Source: a virus
IMG/VR virus record: IMGVR_UViG_3300042515_002010
Span: 1 to 26,164 of that record
Direction: 5' to 3' (one strand)
Length of the DNA: 26,164 nt
Part shown: positions 10,496 through 26,138 of the stretch, piece by piece
Layout: each line of letters starts with the position of its first letter
How positions within the stretch are numbered: position 1 is the stretch's first letter
Notes under the pieces: model-generated
Databases searched by the model: none
What the model was told of the DNA's origin: nothing
The model's input: the letters and a program-made list of their open reading frames with translations, nothing else
Program-made: the position numbers and the translations under genes

Positions 10496-11318
10496 GATAG
10501 CTAGTTCAGATCCTGGTAGGTATTACCTTTAATGATTTGGTAAATAGCTACATGGCCACAGTTAAACTTTTCAGCAATCTTTCTATAAGAAAGTCCCGCT
10601 TCTTTTAAGGTTTTAATTCTGGCCACATCGTCTGAAGAAAACTTTCTCAAAGAATTCTTCGGCTTTCCTTTACTGGCAAAACCATTGTTCTTGTAACAAC
10701 CCGTTTTCCAGGCTCTTGTTAAATTTTCTTGTTTGGTAACAATTTCAAGATTTTCAATTTTATTGTTTCTCTTGTTGTTGTCAATGTGGTCTACTTGAAG
10801 GGAAAAGTTATTTGTTCCATGAGAACGAAGATCTAATCCTAAAAAAGCCACTGCCATCAAAACATGAAGATGAAAACGTTTTCTTTTTCCATTAACAAGA
10901 ACTGAAATACGATCATAAGAACTGGTTGAACTGATGGGAACCCTTTTAAAATATTCTTGATTATCAGGATCAAGACGTTTTTCAAAAGCCTCTCCATCTT
11001 TAGTTAAGTAAAGATTACCAAATCCAGGTACAAGTTTTGGTTCCATGTTGTTTATGAACAGGTTTCCAGGCTTACTATACCTCAACTGAACGCTCAACGT
11101 TGTCACCTCATCGAGCAATTGGTGAGTGCAAACCGGATGAATTCAGGGAAGCCCTAACGTAAAGACGAGGGTAATCCTGAGCCAAGCCAATCAAGCGTGA
11201 TTGGAAGGCGCAGAGACTACTGGGGGTAACACGCTCTTGTTACGTAATACCAGATTTAGCGTCCGGCATCCCACAGGGATGAAGAGATAGTCCACCCCTC
11301 TAAGAAACTAGAGACCAG
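10496..11318 (+). ncRNA. Group I intron (IA-type) interrupting the major capsid gene
   Basis: This self-splicing RNA has all core elements in order. P is 11140-11150 and Q is 11173-11188 (P4 = TCAGG/CCTGA; P5 = CCCT/AGGG; P6 = CCAATC/GATTGG). R is GCAGAGACTA at 11210-11219 and S is 11282-11293 (P7 = GACTA/TAGTC). P3 pairs 11133-11139 with 11260-11266, P8 is the perfect hairpin CATCCC-aca-GGGATG (11267-11281), and P9 is CTCTA/TAGAG (11298-11313). An extra hairpin between P7 and P3' (GTAAC/GTTAC) suggests subgroup IA. The terminal G is most likely 11318. The 5' boundary is uncertain by about 3 nt. About 600 nt of peripheral sequence between P1 strands is taken up by an antisense endonuclease gene. 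Confidence 0.9.
10501..11046 (-). CDS. HNH homing endonuclease, antisense within the group I intron (181 aa)
   Basis: The product has an N-terminal block typical of phage HNH proteins (GNLYLTKDGEAF; a basic KRKRFHLHVLMAVAFLG), then the HNH core (VDHIDNNKRNNKIENLEIVT, with the catalytic His and Asn residues), then a C-terminal helix-turn-helix (LSYRKIAEKFNCGHVAIYQII) for DNA contact. The frame could extend to 11118, but I choose ATG 11046: residues before it are not family-like, and a TATAGT box (11079-11074, minus strand) lies 27 nt upstream, so the gene may have its own promoter. Its stop is only a few nt from the intron's 5' splice site. Homing endonucleases usually lie in the sense direction of their phage introns, so this orientation is odd. 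Confidence 0.85.
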   Translation of the reverse strand: MEPKLVPGFGNLYLTKDGEAFEKRLDPDNQEYFKRVPISSTSSYDRISVLVNGKRKRFHLHVLMAVAFLGLDLRSHGTNNFSLQVDHIDNNKRNNKIENLEIVTKQENLTRAWKTGCYKNNGFASKGKPKNSLRKFSSDDVARIKTLKEAGLSYRKIAEKFNCGHVAIYQIIKGNTYQDLN

Positions 11319-12473
11319 GAGAACGACTTCCCTAAGATTCTGGGTGCTGAGCTGTATCGCCCTCACCCTGCCTATATCTGTGAGATGGCCGTAGAGCCCG
11401 TGGTTGTCCACGACTTTACTCGCCAACCCGGTCAAACCGTTCAACTTGATCGCTATAAGTTCTGGGGTAACCCTGGGACCAAGGACAGCCGTGCTCGCGT
11501 GGCTGACCAAACGATCGGTACCGCTAACAGCCGTAACATCACCAAGGAAAAAGTCCTGGTGGTGCTTAACGAATACACCGGTCCTGCTGATCCTGGCGAT
11601 CCGACCCAGCCTTCGACCTTTAAGATTGCTCGCGAAACCCTGATTACCGCTCAGCGCCTTCTGCTGGACACCGGTAATCTCAACATGTTCCACCAGTCGA
11701 TCGGTAGCCTCACCCTGCTGGATGACTATCGTCGTTGGCGTGACCGCGTCTTCATTGACGAACTGTCCAAAGCAGAAGCCAATGGTGCCGCTTCTAGCAC
11801 CCAAGGTGGTTACTACTTCCCTGGTGGTAAGACCAAGAACTCTTCTGGTCAAGTTACCTACACTGCTACTGAGTACACTGCTGACCTGCAGCAATTCTCG
11901 GTTCGCACTGACCTGCTGAATGTTGTTAAGGACCTGCGTAAGCGCAACGTTCCTACCTTCGCTGACGGTCTGTATCGCTGCATTTGCGATCCCGTGTTCA
12001 TGATGCACCTGCGTCGTGACCCCGACTTCCGTGAGATTGCTCGTTACTCCGGTAATCCTGGTCAAGGCATGTACATGGGTAACCCCATGATGCCCAACAA
12101 CGCTAGCTTCTACATGGGTCCCCAAGCTGGTCAGGGTTATTTCCTGGCTGGTGAACCTGTTATGCCGACTGGTGTTCAGTTTGAAGGTGTGAAGTTCTTC
12201 GAATCGACCAACTTCCCCAACAAGCAAATCTCGGCTAGCTTTGCTACTCCCGCTTCTTACTCCAACCAAGACGTTGCTCAGGGCTTCTTCTTCGGTCCTC
12301 AGGCCGTTGGTGTTGGTATCGGTGGTCCGAACGCTCAGGTGCTCATCAATAACAACGATGACTTCAGCCGTTTCATCATCTTGATTTGGCAACTGTACGC
12401 TGGTTTTGAAGTGCTGAACAAAGACTTCATCACGACTGCTTACAGCTTTGTCTCTGACGACGGCACTGTCTGA
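11319..12473 (+). CDS. Major capsid protein, exon 2 (384 codons)
   Basis: The reading frame is open upstream of the first ATG (11385) back to a TAA inside the intron, and that extra sequence (ENDFPKILGAELYRPHPAYICE) is clearly protein-like, so translation must begin in exon 1 rather than at 11385, which also lacks a Shine-Dalgarno. I call it the major capsid protein from its position after portal and scaffold-like genes, its length (about 387 residues when spliced), and its strongly biased, C/T-ending codons, typical of the most expressed phage gene. I see no resemblance to T4 gp23 that I could defend. The C-terminus (FEVLNKDFITTAYSFV) is intact. A strong Shine-Dalgarno gene follows. Confidence 0.85.
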   Translation, partial: ENDFPKILGAELYRPHPAYICEMAVEPVVVHDFTRQPGQTVQLDRYKFWGNPGTKDSRARVADQTIGTANSRNITKEKVLVVLNEYTGPADPGDPTQPSTFKIARETLITAQRLLLDTGNLNMFHQSIGSLTLLDDYRRWRDRVFIDELSKAEANGAASSTQGGYYFPGGKTKNSSGQVTYTATEYTADLQQFSVRTDLLNVVKDLRKRNVPTFADGLYRCICDPVFMMHLRRDPDFREIARYSGNPGQGMYMGNPMMPNNASFYMGPQAGQGYFLAGEPVMPTGVQFEGVKFFESTNFPNKQISASFATPASYSNQDVAQGFFFGPQAVGVGIGGPNAQVLINNNDDFSRFIILIWQLYAGFEVLNKDFITTAYSFVSDDGTV

Positions 12474-20331: not shown

Positions 20332-20694
20332 ATGTTCAGTGACGAGAACGCACCACTCGCCCTACTGATCGAAGTAACTCCAAGGTTAGCAAAAAAACGA
20401 TTTAGAGACGATATTTATAAATCCTGGGATTATAAATGTGGCTATTGCGAAGACGTAGCAACAAGCCTGGATCACATTGTCCCGAGGTTTAAATCAGGTT
20501 CCAGCAACAGGAACAATTTGATTCCTGCTTGTCGTCGCTGCAACAGTAACAAGGGAAGCACTGCCGTGGAGCAATGGTATCAACAGCAGGAATTCTTTAC
20601 TCAGGTTAAGATGGAAAGAATCAAGGCCTGGATGTCACAAGAAGTTGTTGACATTTTTTCTTATCCATTACAAGAGTTAAAACCGGCAGTTTGA
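20332..20694 (+). CDS. HNH endonuclease (120 aa)
   Basis: The core is a classic HNH nuclease with structural zinc: CGYCEDVATSLDHIVPRFKS, then SSNRNNLIPACRRCNSNKG. It has the two C-x-x-C pairs, the catalytic DH and the N...N residues. It cuts double-stranded DNA with a divalent metal. Short free-standing HNH proteins in phages act either as homing endonucleases or with the terminase in packaging. Being far from terL and beside the integrase scar, a homing role is more likely. The next gene begins 1 nt after its stop. Confidence 0.9.
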   Translation: MFSDENAPLALLIEVTPRLAKKRFRDDIYKSWDYKCGYCEDVATSLDHIVPRFKSGSSNRNNLIPACRRCNSNKGSTAVEQWYQQQEFFTQVKMERIKAWMSQEVVDIFSYPLQELKPAV

Positions 20695-20695
20695 C

Positions 20696-23398
20696 ATGGG
20701 ACTTTCATATGATCCGGCAGCGCGTAAGTGGAATGTTGTTTATGAAAATGAAAATTTAGGCAGGAATGAAGTTAATCCAAATTTAACTGTACCGACCGCT
20801 ACTGTTTATTACAAAACACAACAAATAGGTGGCTGGGGCCAAACTAGAAAAACAATAGTCCATGCAAGTATCGGTGCTCCAAATGGTTTTACTAGTGGAG
20901 GTGGATCGGTAACAGTTCAACTAGACCCTAATACAGCAAAAGACCAGCAAAGTCTTGCACAAGAAATTGCAAGTAAAGCAGGTAATGGAATAACAGCAAG
21001 TGCTTTAATTTCTGCTCAGCAGTTTGGCGATCAACTAGGTAATCTTATTAATCAAAAAAATGCGTATACTACCAATGAACAAAATAAAGAAATTAATCAA
21101 CTTAGAGAAAAACAAGAAACAGAAAATAAAACAAAAAATACAGCATATAGATCGGTTTTAACAACTGTAAACAATACCAAGGGCGGTGATTATGTTCAGC
21201 AAAGAGCTTTAATTCAAAACATTCAAGGTATTGATACTACTTTAAAAAGTGCTTTAGAAAATTATTACAAAGCATATTATTCAACGGAGAAAATTCAACC
21301 CTGGAGCTCCGATCTTGGAGCTAAACCTCCTTACGGTGTTTTTGATGCTGCTTATTACAAAGCACAAAATCCAGTTGCTGCTCAACAATGGCAATCTGCT
21401 GTTGCCAATGATGATATTGATATTACTCAACGGTATGGCGAGAATGGTTTTTATTTAAACCATTACACAACACAAGGTAAGCCAGCAGGTGCCCGTGGTA
21501 ACAAAGCAGAAGAACTTGCCGCTGCAAAGCAATACGTTGAACGCAAACCGACTGATATTGAGCTACAACAAGCGCGTACGATTCAGCTTGGTGTCAACAC
21601 AGATACTCAAACAGAACGTCTTCTAAAGGTACCAGAAGTTGCTGCAGCCTGGGAAGCTGCTAAAGCAGGTGACACGTATTGGAAATCAAAAGGAAAAGAA
21701 TTTTTTCTGGACCTTAACAAGCCGGATGAATTTGCCGTACTCTTCCGAATGTCTGATCGGCCGGAAGATAAAGAAGTTGCATTTAAATACAATATCAATG
21801 CTGATTACGGAATTACAGAACTAGAAGACGCACTCAACGCTGCTGTCGGTGAGAAAGCAATTGTGGACGTTAAGCGTTTTGGTGCGTTGACCCAAGATGT
21901 TTTAAAACAAACAATTGAGCAAATGAAAAAAGCTAAAGGGATGGAGCAAGAACTTGCCATCTTTAGCGGCTTTGATTCTTTTGGTGAAATTACTGGTATC
22001 AATAAAGATTTAACTAATTCAATTCTTGGGGATTCTGGGGTCGGCGGTGTACTCTCATTTATGGGTGGCGATAAAGCACAAAAGTCTTTAGAAAAATCTT
22101 TACGTGGAATTACTGGTATTAACAATGAAGTAACTTATAACTGGCAGCAATGGTTTGATAACACACTTAAAGAAAAATACCAAGCTGATTTAGAGCTGGG
22201 ACTTACAAAAGAGCAAGCAGAAGAACGAGTAAAGATTCAAGGCCAATTTGCGCGTGACTTTATTGATCAATATTTGATGCCTCGCTTCAACGAATCCAAA
22301 TCAATGAATGAATTTGTTGAGTATCTCGACGTTCGCCAGTCAGAACAAAACCCATTCCAAACTCAAGATATTCTTAACGCTGTAAAATTAGTTGCTGATT
22401 TAAGGGCTAATGAATATATTGAAGAGCTTCGTAAAACTCCTGAACGTTACTTTAACGCAGAGTTTTACTTTAACCCATCGGGAGACAAGGCAAGAACTGA
22501 AGCCTATGCAAGGCAAGCGTCCACAGTAAGTGCTGATTGGGAAGCAGCTAAAAATGGAGATCCTTACTGGACCTCACAAGCATATCGCTTTGGCGTAAAC
22601 ATCAATGACAAAGATGCTTTTGCCAGGATGCACTTCCAGGTTAAAGGCCAAGGGCAAGGTTACGATCCGGCCGATGACATTTTAAACGCATCTAAAGTGA
22701 GTGATTATATCTACAATCAAATCCTTCCAGCTCTTAACGAAGAAGCTCTTGCTCAAGGAACAGTTTTTGGTCAGTTCTTGAAGCCAGAAGAATTTGCTGA
22801 TGAGATGTTAAAAGGATTGAATCCAGAAGATAAGCAAACTTGGGATGAAGTACTAGAGAAATATGGACTTGAAAGTTTTGGTGGAACTATTGAAGAGTTA
22901 AAAAATTACATTACAGAAGCTGTTAGAACTGGTTCGGCACAAGAAATCAGAGAACAAATTAAGTACCTAAACGAGAAAAGAGAAAAACCAACACAAGAAG
23001 TGTTAGGTGTTAGTTACATCCAAAGAGAAGAAGATTATAAACCCAAAGATACTATTGAAGGCCAAACTGAACTATACAAAACATTTCAATCTGCTGGTTT
23101 CCAGGGTACAGAAGATGAGTTTTATGAGAACTTTTTTCCGGATCTCGATCGATCCGAACAAGCTGCTCTCACCAAGGCAGGAACTAACGAAGCATTGAAG
23201 ACAACTGGACTTAACTTTTCTGACCCGTTTGCCTCTCTTGGTACAATTGAAAGTTTCTTTGGTGAAGGAGAAGAAGAGGAAGAACCAACAAGGTCTAGTT
23301 ATTTTACAATTGATGAAGATGAGAAATTACCGACCAAATCAAAAGCTGGTCAGGGGTTCTTAAACGAATTCACATCTATGTTTAAAGGGCTTAGTTGA
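20696..23398 (+). CDS. Very large repeat-containing virion-type protein (900 aa)
   Basis: The largest gene in the window. After a beta-rich start and a Lys/Glu/Gln coiled coil (about residues 120-160), it carries a degenerate repeated module centred on Trp 232, Trp 319 and Trp 615: WQSAVANDDIDITQRYG; WEAAKAGDTYWKSKGKEFF; WEAAKNGDPYWTSQAYRF, each followed by a polar/aromatic stretch (compare LNKPDEFAVLF with INDKDAFARMHF). Other parts are Lys/Glu-rich helices, and the C-terminus is acidic (GEGEEEEEPTR). There is no enzyme motif. Size and position suggest an internal/ejection protein, tape-measure-like or fibre protein; I cannot choose. It is translated directly after the HNH gene. Confidence 0.75.
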   Translation: MGLSYDPAARKWNVVYENENLGRNEVNPNLTVPTATVYYKTQQIGGWGQTRKTIVHASIGAPNGFTSGGGSVTVQLDPNTAKDQQSLAQEIASKAGNGITASALISAQQFGDQLGNLINQKNAYTTNEQNKEINQLREKQETENKTKNTAYRSVLTTVNNTKGGDYVQQRALIQNIQGIDTTLKSALENYYKAYYSTEKIQPWSSDLGAKPPYGVFDAAYYKAQNPVAAQQWQSAVANDDIDITQRYGENGFYLNHYTTQGKPAGARGNKAEELAAAKQYVERKPTDIELQQARTIQLGVNTDTQTERLLKVPEVAAAWEAAKAGDTYWKSKGKEFFLDLNKPDEFAVLFRMSDRPEDKEVAFKYNINADYGITELEDALNAAVGEKAIVDVKRFGALTQDVLKQTIEQMKKAKGMEQELAIFSGFDSFGEITGINKDLTNSILGDSGVGGVLSFMGGDKAQKSLEKSLRGITGINNEVTYNWQQWFDNTLKEKYQADLELGLTKEQAEERVKIQGQFARDFIDQYLMPRFNESKSMNEFVEYLDVRQSEQNPFQTQDILNAVKLVADLRANEYIEELRKTPERYFNAEFYFNPSGDKARTEAYARQASTVSADWEAAKNGDPYWTSQAYRFGVNINDKDAFARMHFQVKGQGQGYDPADDILNASKVSDYIYNQILPALNEEALAQGTVFGQFLKPEEFADEMLKGLNPEDKQTWDEVLEKYGLESFGGTIEELKNYITEAVRTGSAQEIREQIKYLNEKREKPTQEVLGVSYIQREEDYKPKDTIEGQTELYKTFQSAGFQGTEDEFYENFFPDLDRSEQAALTKAGTNEALKTTGLNFSDPFASLGTIESFFGEGEEEEEPTRSSYFTIDEDEKLPTKSKAGQGFLNEFTSMFKGLS

Positions 23399-23775
23399 TG
23401 GCAGATAAACGTAAGAAAGCAGCTAAGGCAGCCAAGCTACACAAGGACTCAATGCCTTGTAACAAACCAAAGAAGACCCCTGGGCACCCCACAAAATCGC
23501 ATGTGGTTAAAGCCTGTGAAGGTGGAAAAGAGAAAATTATTCGCTTTGGACAGCAAGGAGTTAGTGGCAGTCCCAAGAAAGAAGGTGAGTCAGAAGTTTA
23601 TCGTAAACGCAGGGAAAGTTTTAAAGCTAGGCACGCAAAAAATATTGCAAAAGGAAAGATGTCGGCGGCATTTTGGGCAAACCGCGTCAAGTGGATGATC
23701 CTAAGTGGTATAATTTTGCCAGAGTTCTTGAACACATGTCTGCACGCTGGAACTACGTTGTTACAACTTGTGTAG
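23398..23775 (+). CDS. Small basic conserved phage protein with a displaced 3' end (125 aa)
   Basis: The ATG overlaps the previous TGA by one base. The first 100 residues are basic and look strongly conserved (KTPGHPTKSHVVKACEGGKE; IIRFGQQGVSGSPKKEGESE; RRESFKARHAKNIAKGKM; AAFWANRVKW). I know this pattern from phage proteins (I believe DUF6321) that normally end at the '..W...VKW' motif. Here the frame runs 25 residues further into an odd tail because an HNH gene has been inserted exactly after VKW. The natural length is therefore about 100 residues. Function unknown; the Lys/Arg content suggests nucleic-acid binding. Confidence 0.75.
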   Translation: MADKRKKAAKAAKLHKDSMPCNKPKKTPGHPTKSHVVKACEGGKEKIIRFGQQGVSGSPKKEGESEVYRKRRESFKARHAKNIAKGKMSAAFWANRVKWMILSGIILPEFLNTCLHAGTTLLQLV

Positions 23776-24317
23776 TATGCAGCCGCAAAGGTAAGATACG
23801 AATTGATCAATTTAATAGAAAAAATAAAATATGGGAATGCAGGAGTTGCGCTTTTAAAAAAAGAAAACTTAATATTAAAACTCCTTCTCCCAAACATGAT
23901 TCACAAAAATCAGGAGCATATAAAAGTTATTGGCATGCAAAAAAACGAGTACGAGAAAATCATAAAAATGCATATGGACATGTTCTTTTTTGTTTTAAAT
24001 CTTTTGAAGAATTTTGGGAGCTATTGGGTGAACGCCCGAAGGGAATGTCTCTAGATAGAATTGATCCAAATGGTAATTACGAACCTGGAAATGTGCGTTG
24101 GGCAACAGTCCATGACCAAGTCAGGAATAAAAGAAATAATGTATTAATTGAATATAAAGGAAATTTGATGTGTTTATATGACATTGCTAAAATAACAAAA
24201 CAAGATCCAGGGTGTTTAAGAAGACGTTTGAAGACCGGATGCCCAAAAGAATTTTTATTCGAACAAGGCAAATGGTTAATAAAGCAGCAAAAATTTATTC
24301 CCAAAGTAAAATGGTGA
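23691..24317 (+). CDS. HNH homing endonuclease inserted at the end of the 23398 gene (about 208 aa)
   Basis: An N-terminal zinc-ribbon-like block (TTCVVCSRKGKI ... WECRSCAFKK) precedes an HNH-type core (GMSLDRIDPNGNYEPGNVRW, then ATVHDQVRNKRNN) and a C-terminal DNA-contact region (LYDIAKITKQDPGCLRRRL). This layout is common in phage homing endonucleases. I place the start at GTG 23691; TTG 23673 and ATG 23736 are alternatives and no Shine-Dalgarno decides. The protein ends KVKW-stop, the same terminal motif that the upstream gene has just before the HNH begins, which marks the probable insertion boundaries. The gene is richer in A/T than its neighbours. Confidence 0.75.
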   Translation: MDDPKWYNFARVLEHMSARWNYVVTTCVVCSRKGKIRIDQFNRKNKIWECRSCAFKKRKLNIKTPSPKHDSQKSGAYKSYWHAKKRVRENHKNAYGHVLFCFKSFEEFWELLGERPKGMSLDRIDPNGNYEPGNVRWATVHDQVRNKRNNVLIEYKGNLMCLYDIAKITKQDPGCLRRRLKTGCPKEFLFEQGKWLIKQQKFIPKVKW

Positions 24318-24500: not shown

Positions 24501-25166
24501 ATGTCCGATTTTTCGCGGGCAATTAAATTAATTAAAAAATATGAGGGGTTTAGCGAAAAAGCTTACCCAGATCCGTGCACTGGAACAACTCCTTATACGT
24601 TAGGGTTTGGAACACAATATTATCCTGATGGCGCTCCAGTGCGTCAAGGGCATTGCTGTACAGAACGTAAAGCACTGGAATATTTGAACCACGAAGTAGA
24701 AGTTATTAACGAAGAATTGATGCGTCTCAACTTAGGTCTTGATGACTCAATGGTTAATGCGTTAATTTCTTTTATTCATTCCGTTGGTTGGGAGCCTTTT
24801 CTTTACAGTCCCATCATTGATGCAGTGGAGATTGAGGATTGGCGTGGTGCAGCAGAACAAATTACACGTTGGGTCTTCGATCATTACTACAGGGTAGTAG
24901 GCGGACTCCTTGATCGACGCAGAGAAGAATCTTCACTTTTCCTATCGGAAATACGCTCTTCCTTGTCGCCAACTGGAGGCATTCTCTTGCGTGCGTTCTC
25001 CAATTACGGTGGAGCTGAGCACCAGATCAGATCAATTGAAACCCTGGAACAAAAGATCAATCCATATACTCTGGCTGAGTTTGCAAACCAGTTTGACCTA
25101 GAAGTCACTTTTGATTTTGGCCAAGAGCATGACTGGAAAGGATCATCATTTGACTCGTGGGATTAG
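24501..25166 (+). CDS. Lysozyme / endolysin, GH24 (T4-lysozyme-like), with C-terminal extension (221 aa)
   Basis: Cuts the glycan backbone of peptidoglycan. The catalytic pattern of GH24 is complete: Glu15 in KKYEGF, Asp24 in AYPDPC (nine residues apart, as in T4 lysozyme), and Thr33 in YTLGFGT. The usual GH of 'GxGH' is GFGT here. A late 'GLLDRRREESSLF' block matches the family's 'G...RR..E..LF'. Family members are about 150-165 residues; this one has about 65 extra residues after residue 155 (Ser/Gly then acidic), with no domain I recognise. No signal peptide, so it needs a holin for release. The small membrane protein at 6299 is one distant candidate. Confidence 0.9.
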   Translation: MSDFSRAIKLIKKYEGFSEKAYPDPCTGTTPYTLGFGTQYYPDGAPVRQGHCCTERKALEYLNHEVEVINEELMRLNLGLDDSMVNALISFIHSVGWEPFLYSPIIDAVEIEDWRGAAEQITRWVFDHYYRVVGGLLDRRREESSLFLSEIRSSLSPTGGILLRAFSNYGGAEHQIRSIETLEQKINPYTLAEFANQFDLEVTFDFGQEHDWKGSSFDSWD

Positions 25167-25191: not shown

Positions 25192-25488
25192 ATGGAAGAC
25201 GCTGTTCGTCCCCGCGAGTTAGAACTCCCTCTGCAACTGCAATTTGCCATGCGCAAAGCAGAGCTTGAAGCACAAGAGATGACTTGGGACCAGTTGTACG
25301 CAGCTTTGTTAAATCTGTACCAGCGGCGTTTAATTGAGTGGGCAGCAGTAAAAGACATTCTCCAAGACGAAAATATCGAACTTGAATTTGACTGCCCGAC
25401 TCAGCTTGAACTCGTGGAACTGGCCATGATGTGTCAAGGTGACGACGATGATGACGAAGAAGATGACGAACCGATGTCAGTCTTCTAA
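25192..25488 (+). CDS. NblA-like phycobilisome-degradation adaptor (98 aa)
   Basis: Residues 10-57 follow the NblA pattern without gaps: LELPLQLQFAMRKAELEAQ (L-x-L-x-x-Q-F-x-x-R), then EMTWDQLYAALLNLY (M-[ST]-x-[DE]-Q-x5-L-x-x-LY), then a charged helix (QRRLIEWAAVKDIL). NblA is a small two-helix protein that links phycobilisomes to the host Clp protease so that the antenna is degraded. Here a longer C-terminus follows (ELEFDCPTQLELVELA, then a run of Asp/Glu), absent from the 55-60-residue host proteins. I start at ATG 25192; the upstream ATG at 25111 would overlap the lysozyme end. The 3' end overlaps the convergent DUF3310 gene by 12 nt. The match is by pattern from memory. Confidence 0.65.
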   Translation: MEDAVRPRELELPLQLQFAMRKAELEAQEMTWDQLYAALLNLYQRRLIEWAAVKDILQDENIELEFDCPTQLELVELAMMCQGDDDDDEEDDEPMSVF

Positions 25489-25740
25489 TTTTTGAATAAG
25501 GCGATTTAAATACCACATTGCTTTCTTTGCATCTTTTTTGGGATCTTCTTTATCCCACATCCTGTCAATATATTTAATTACTTGCCACTGGAGGCCGCCA
25601 AGAACCGCATCAGGTGCAAACTGAACTGCATCCTCAATCTTATCGATTGTTTCAATTGCCTTTCTATCGTTGACATAGTGGGGTGGGTGATTCACCATGT
25701 CGACCGCTGGTTTAGCAACAACCAGCTTTGAGGTAGGCAT
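25477..25740 (-). CDS. DUF3310 protein (87 aa)
   Basis: The sequence MVNHPPHYVNDRKAIETID followed by GGLQWQVIKYIDRMWDKED and DAKKAMWYLNRLI matches DUF3310 (H-P-x-H-Y ... E-x-I-D ... G...KYI.R ... KA..YL), a small phage family sometimes described with nucleotide-kinase genes; its role is not established. The frame is open further upstream to 25923, but that part overlaps another gene by 148 nt and is not family-like, so I start at the ATG at 25740 (minus strand). First gene of a minus-strand module; convergent with the NblA-like gene. Confidence 0.8.
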   Translation of the reverse strand: MPTSKLVVAKPAVDMVNHPPHYVNDRKAIETIDKIEDAVQFAPDAVLGGLQWQVIKYIDRMWDKEDPKKDAKKAMWYLNRLIQKLED

Positions 25741-25775
25741 TGGACAGAATCCGTCCTTACACCCTTCTTCAGAAT

Positions 25776-26138
25776 CTACCGGCTCAAACCACGGCGTTTC
25801 TTCGACATCTCGATTTCGTCCTCCGGCATCCCCTCCAGTTCCAAGACTAAAGACCTGGGCTTCGGATTGGCGCCCATCTTCATCCCTTCTTCCATACTCG
25901 GAATATATCCCGTCAGACCGCATCGTTCTCCTCCTTCAATTTGTAGGTTCTGGCGCTCACGCCCTTCTTGGGTGAGCACTAAACCCCGATTATAAAGGTC
26001 TTGAAGCGGAACGTCGTTGGTTTCGTTGTCTAGTTCTTGACCAAAATCCATCAGGCTTAAACACCTGTTTTTTACTTCATCATTCGTAACAATGAAGTTA
26101 TCTAAGAAGTCGCTCATAGATGACGCAGCGTGCATCAT
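25776..26138 (-). CDS. Hypothetical acidic protein (120 aa)
   Basis: The product is acidic and Met/Leu/Glu/Asp-rich (MSDFLDNFIVTNDEVKNR; LDNETNDVPLQDLYNRG), with a basic end (SKKRRGLSR). Its start may be at 26138 or at the in-frame ATG at 26117 (MSDFLDN), and neither has a clear Shine-Dalgarno. It lies 35 nt upstream of the preferred DUF3310 start and is probably co-transcribed. No domain recognised. A TATAAC box (minus strand) precedes the 26138 ATG, near the window edge. Confidence 0.6.
   Translation of the reverse strand: MMHAASSMSDFLDNFIVTNDEVKNRCLSLMDFGQELDNETNDVPLQDLYNRGLVLTQEGRERQNLQIEGGERCGLTGYIPSMEEGMKMGANPKPRSLVLELEGMPEDEIEMSKKRRGLSR

Follow-up and report, generated by a model that had tools for sequence, protein, structure and literature searches.

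NblA is a host protein by which the light-harvesting antenna is tagged for breakdown. When phages carry genes for NblA, these are generally regarded as auxiliary and patchily distributed. They have been listed in podoviruses, myoviruses and metagenome phages, S-EIV1 not being named among them, and phage NblA of other lineages caused phycobilin loss when expressed in cyanobacteria, e.g., S. elongatus (PMC9602691). In Ma-LMM01, nblA lies in the UG region, apart from the structural genes, and its product is reported to keep all the highly conserved residues, unlike the phage family described here (PMC4103541). For the genus-level group of S-EIV1, only hli and ptoX are listed, without nblA (PMC5332604, Table 2). 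In this report, we focus on an NblA-like gene in a viral DNA of 26,164 nucleotides (IMG/VR virus record IMGVR_UViG_3300042515_002010, positions 1 to 26,164), hereafter the window, and on its relatives in the S-EIV1-like lineage.

The gene, its neighbors and its conservation

The NblA-like open reading frame (25192..25488, plus strand) is intact, with an ATG at 25192 and a stop codon at 25486-25488, and its translation is MEDAVRPRELELPLQLQFAMRKAELEAQEMTWDQLYAALLNLYQRRLIEWAAVKDILQDENIELEFDCPTQLELVELAMMCQGDDDDDEEDDEPMSVF (98 aa), with a computed pI of ~4.05 and a charge of ~-20. Directly upstream on the plus strand is a lysozyme (endolysin) gene at 24501..25166 (Pfam Phage_lysozyme, E=1.9e-18; PHROG endolysin), the stop codon of which is separated from the ATG by 25 nt, and the location given in the earlier note, directly after the lysozyme in the late module, is therefore correct; the two genes are probably co-transcribed. 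A convergent gene for a DUF3310 protein (25477..25923, minus strand; Pfam E=3.4e-11) overlaps the NblA-like frame over its final 12 nt. The phage origin claimed for the gene is likewise supported.

A tblastn search of 50,697 phage records matched a sole isolate, Synechococcus phage S-EIV1 (KJ410740). Its protein AHV82245, annotated as a 'hypothetical protein', is the ortholog, with 81.5% identity over residues 1-81 and the same gene order, and differs from the window protein in a longer tail, ending in KELAPF. The gene was thus previously unlabelled in S-EIV1, and may be mentioned in Nadel 2019 or in Chenard 2015, the S-EIV1 genome paper. An IMG/VR scan confirmed 443 relatives. Among the fetched loci having a complete start, all start with ATG (187/187, representing 78 distinct nucleotide ORFs, with the same contig often sampled through several overlapping loci), the DUF3310 gene is on the opposite (minus) strand in 187/187, and the lysozyme lies 24-72 nt upstream wherever the contig extends that far. 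Purifying selection, estimated by Nei-Gojobori-type counts, is strong in both parts of the protein, with a dN/dS of ~0.02 (0.022) in the hairpin, where dS is near saturation, and of ~0.08 in the added third-helix segment. The NblA-like ORF is confirmed as a real, strongly conserved gene. In addition, a search seeded with the lysozyme, covering 80 contigs with lysozyme identity down to 57%, found an NblA-like gene downstream of the lysozyme in every one (80/80); on this ground it is a syntenic core gene of the late module, apparently universal in the S-EIV1-like lineage.

Elsewhere in the window, Rfam detects a group I intron (RF00028, 89 bits) at 11046-11314 on the plus strand, which lies just upstream of the start of the major capsid ORF at 11385 (PHROG major head protein), and is overlapped by a minus-strand ORF at 10501-11118 that looks, by eye, like an HNH homing endonuclease. 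The end of a small gene rich in Lys (window 23395-24317) is overlapped by an HNH endonuclease ORF at 23673-24317 (PHROG E=1.7e-26). The S-EIV1 ortholog of this Lys-rich gene ends in ...AFWSSVTKW-stop; the window copy continues past its usual stop, and an ending of that kind, 'KVKW-stop', is seen again where the HNH ORF terminates, a pattern that would fit insertion of the endonuclease gene at the stop codon of the Lys-rich gene. A free-standing HNH nuclease is found at 20332-20694 (Pfam HNH, E=7.5e-10), and an HNH nuclease is annotated at the corresponding position of S-EIV1.

Homology to NblA and the predicted fold

The helical hairpin (residues 12-60, 25225..25371, plus strand) is delimited by Pfam, 1ojh, hhalign and AF2. 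The spaced motif pointed out in the earlier note, L.L..QF..R...M[ST].[DE]Q....L..LY, is matched exactly by the window protein, and its exact form occurs in 39/55 family members and in 22/40 authentic cyanobacterial or phage NblA. Against the Pfam NblA model PF04485, which the earlier note had proposed as a check, the window protein alone scores 15.1 bits (E=0.033, residues 12-58), below the gathering cut-off of 25 bits and within the 15-21 bits at which partial NblA matches form the background in other genomes. Its relatives nevertheless point in the same direction: NblA is the commonest Pfam match among 20 diverse family members (17/20, best E=2.3e-5) and the best Pfam match of five further members, over most of the model, and the scores of the five relatives shown range from 15.1 to 23.7 bits, all below the cut-off. 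Searches against NCBIfam and PADLOC gave no match, and PHROGs gave no significant one.

Comparisons that use the whole family are more informative. In phmmer against all PDB chains, the top match to the single window protein is 1ojh (E=0.0044), the NblA of Anabaena PCC 7120 (PMC7966870), which is also the best PDB match of the family profile (E=3.2e-4), over 51 gapless residues (9-59). When this profile was run in six frames against 244 cyanobacterial genomes, eight matches fell below 1e-3, and all eight, the best ones obtained, coincide with nblA genes found independently via PF04485. When 55 phage proteins were aligned by hhalign to 40 NblA, the probability was 94.7% and P=6e-8, over 51 gapless columns with 29% identity, as compared with P=0.012 for the best of 30 column shuffles; a second alignment gave P=1.3e-6. 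A tblastn search of phages with Anabaena NblA found nothing, which indicates that the sensitivity of tblastn is insufficient for this family. Judged by sequence likeness across the whole 50-position domain, residues 9-60 are homologous to NblA, and at this level the question is settled by the family-level tests, against the single-protein score below the cut-off. The homology to NblA put forward in the earlier note is thus supported by the profile, reciprocal and hhalign tests, although the window protein alone falls below the Pfam cut-off (15.1 versus 25 bits).

Two possible cellular sources or relatives were discarded. In 145 genomes of one family, presumed from their size to be picocyanobacterial, neither a PF04485 match over the cut-off nor a family-profile match below 0.01 was obtained, and these genomes were rejected as the source of the gene. 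In cyanobacterial genomes of small size (1.6-1.7 Mb), an ORF of 32 aa resembles residues 35-57; this was judged a chance likeness.

Structure prediction supports a helical hairpin in the register of NblA. AF2 predicts, for the phage protein, helices at residues 14-28 and 32-59 (pLDDT of the block 85-91) and a third helix at 71-81, and for a genuine NblA used as a control, helices at 9-22 and 27-55; at an alignment offset of +5, the boundaries of the hairpin equal those of NblA within a residue. The NblA-type helix-loop-helix, of ~15 + 28 residues, is thus present in the model. Foldseek against the PDB returned no NblA match for the phage model; the model of a genuine Nostocales NblA also missed 1ojh, and the blank search is therefore not evidence against an NblA fold. 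By homology and fold register, we assign the protein to the NblA superfamily, with NblA activity as such being putative.

Departures from cellular NblA and the acidic, Phe-ended tail

The phage family retains NblA residues at hydrophobic and turn positions, namely L7, L9, F13, M25, S/T26, D/E28, L34, L37, Y38 and L51/L52 (Anabaena numbering). Several polar positions are not. E10-Q11 of NblA is replaced by [QEH]-[LMF] in 55/55 phage proteins, with the LxL and QF of LxLEQQF being kept, R44-E45 is replaced by E-W throughout the family, and position 53, K or R in 40/40 NblA, is A, E, Q or D in 55/55 phage proteins. E10-Q11 and K53 presumably lie within the N- and C-terminal regions of NblA reported to contact ClpC and phycobiliproteins. 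The WGL at the C-terminal end of NblA has given way to a conserved segment, '..D.PT[QD].EL..LA' (residues ~61-82), which comprises a linker and the predicted third helix and is encoded at 25372..25437 on the plus strand; it is absent from NblA and conserved in the family. Accordingly, the phage protein is not a plain copy of NblA, since it scores below the Pfam cut-off, polar positions nearly invariant in NblA are replaced, and a helix and a tail are added. At 98 aa, it is ~1.5 times as long as host NblA (54-69 aa, mean 63, n=40, with ≤4 acidic residues after the hairpin), and not almost twice as long, as had been stated.

The tail of the window protein contains the acidic run DDDDDEEDDE (residues 84-93, 25441..25470, plus strand) and ends in Phe98 (25483..25485, plus strand). 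The tails of 61 distinct relatives carry 6-14 acidic residues, and a C-terminal Phe after an acidic stretch, the feature typical of single-stranded DNA-binding protein (SSB), is found in 84/87 distinct proteins (the 85 tallied plus those of L430 and L435), as PF in 57 and VF in 23. As the terminal Phe is encoded by both TTC and TTT, it is held by selection at the protein level. An acidic C-terminal extension, as described in the earlier note, is therefore present in its Asp/Glu run, but the run does not stand alone, since a helix-forming segment precedes it and a near-invariant Phe ends it. The absolute invariance of this Phe, as it appeared at first (57/57), had to be dropped, as three divergent members end in EDPFAPA, EDPFTPA and NEDFLTA. 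Divergent tails of this kind, with three extra residues past the acidic-Phe motif (PFAPA, PFTPA, FLTA), occur in loci L439, L440, L430 and L435.

The C-terminal tip of SSB (SSB-Ct) is DDDIPF (PMC5872125) and, like the tail of the NblA-like protein, it has a run of acidic residues that leads into a C-terminal [PVI]F. The NblA-like protein differs from SSB in lacking an OB fold, in its longer acidic run and in the three members that do not end in Phe. The SSBs of S-EIV1-like phages themselves end in DEPF, HEPF, EPPF, DPPF or EAPF, i.e., PF after weakly acidic residues, and in the subclade of NblA-like proteins ending in VF, the SSBs end in PF. The SSB loci with this PF-ended, weakly acidic tip are L228-L233 and L136; in L231 and L233, the SSB frame is broken near the C terminus.

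Proposed function and comparison with known systems

We consider it more probable than any other reading (probability of about 0.58) that the protein is a late-expressed, re-tooled proteolysis adaptor of the NblA type, joining a Clp chaperone to an antenna protein. Residues 12-60 would fold as a helix-loop-helix and pair into a four-helix dimer, as in NblA, and the protein would be made late, together with the lysozyme. With one face docked on an AAA+ Clp chaperone of the host and its other face on a phycobilisome protein, the adaptor would cause antenna protein to be loosened and degraded during virion building, which would release amino acids and reduce the capture of excess light. An additional or substitute partner contact may come from the third helix and from the acidic tail with its final Phe, making up for the Glu-Gln and Lys positions that were lost. 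Dimerization, ClpC and phycobilisome binding, late timing and antenna loss are what we infer in this scheme, and the place of the gene in the lysis module points to antenna protein being recycled as infection draws to a close, a timing drawn from gene order only. To extend to this protein what the earlier note said of phage-encoded NblA, that it makes the host dismantle phycobilisomes, is an overstatement, because E10-Q11, R44-E45 and K53, near-invariant polar positions of NblA, are not retained.

The main rival of the NblA-type adaptor is an NblA fold with a different job, in which the adaptor is re-targeted to another host protein, or acts as an anti-adaptor, shielding the antenna during infection by blocking host NblA or ClpC. 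The changes at all the near-invariant polar positions with the hydrophobic core of the hairpin kept, the new conserved helix and tail, and the strong selection on the new helix segment all speak for it, although homology of the hairpin itself favors the ancestral activity, and other divergent phage NblA gave phycobilin loss in S. elongatus (PMC9602691); we therefore rate it as a possible but clearly less probable explanation. Quite another reading takes the tail as a mimic of the SSB tip, docking on SSB partners (polymerase, primase, helicase, nucleases) and recruiting or blocking replication or repair factors, with the hairpin being only an oligomerization platform. The Phe shared by 84/87 proteins, mostly as PF, after an acidic stretch, its retention through both codons, and the PF tips of the lineage's own SSBs and of SSB-Ct would fit this. 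The VF-ended subclade has PF-ended SSBs, so that the tails do not covary, the ends EDPFAPA, EDPFTPA and NEDFLTA would break a free-carboxylate tip, and the gene stands among lysis rather than replication genes; because of the first two of these points, we regard a replication-linked role as unlikely. A protein in which the hairpin and an SSB-like tip together form a physical bridge between the machinery of DNA replication or repair and either host Clp proteolysis or the antenna is no more probable; if true, such a fusion would deliver SSB-binding host proteins to ClpCP, or couple antenna recycling to replication. A chance likeness among short amphipathic hairpins, with the protein being a structural or lysis accessory of the late module, is very improbable and has largely been refuted already: the late position directly after the lysozyme, the low single-sequence score (15.1 bits) and the blank fold search, blank for genuine NblA as well, are compatible with it, but the reciprocal genome search, the shuffled-profile control and the top PDB match oppose it.

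In favor of the NblA-type adaptor stand the homology to NblA, the register of the hairpin, the purifying selection, the syntenic core position (80/80) and the earlier examples of phage NblA function (PMC9602691, PMC4103541); against it stand the Pfam score below the cut-off, the replaced polar positions and the loss of the WGL end. Among known systems, cyanobacterial NblA (PF04485; 1ojh) is alike over the gapless residues 9-60, at ~29% identity and with its helices at a fixed five-residue offset, but has ~63 aa and a WGL end, whereas the phage protein has 98 aa, an extra helix and an acidic, Phe-ended tail. The NblA proteins of Ma-LMM01 and PaV-LD are likewise phage-borne and have the NblA hairpin (52 and 45 bits in PF04485); they are short, score above the Pfam cut-off, and do not lie beside a lysozyme in the loci examined. 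The 'NblA' of marine myoviruses of the S-SCSM1/S-TIM5 type is a cyanophage protein of that label without a tail; single-sequence hhalign found no similarity of it to the phage family or to the NblA profile, and it was set aside as a relative. The S-SCSM1 gene lies at 38952-39116 of L351 (MK867354, 208951-209115), and was given the label on the basis of an HHpred search in the literature (PMC9602691). Here, by comparison, the widespread S-EIV1 lineage carries the gene for an NblA-family protein as a syntenic and apparently universal part of its late core. Because the near-invariant polar positions have been lost while selection has stayed very strong, the protein lends itself directly to testing on which NblA residues contact with ClpC and the phycobilisome depends, and also what a protease adaptor gains from an acidic tail ending in Phe.
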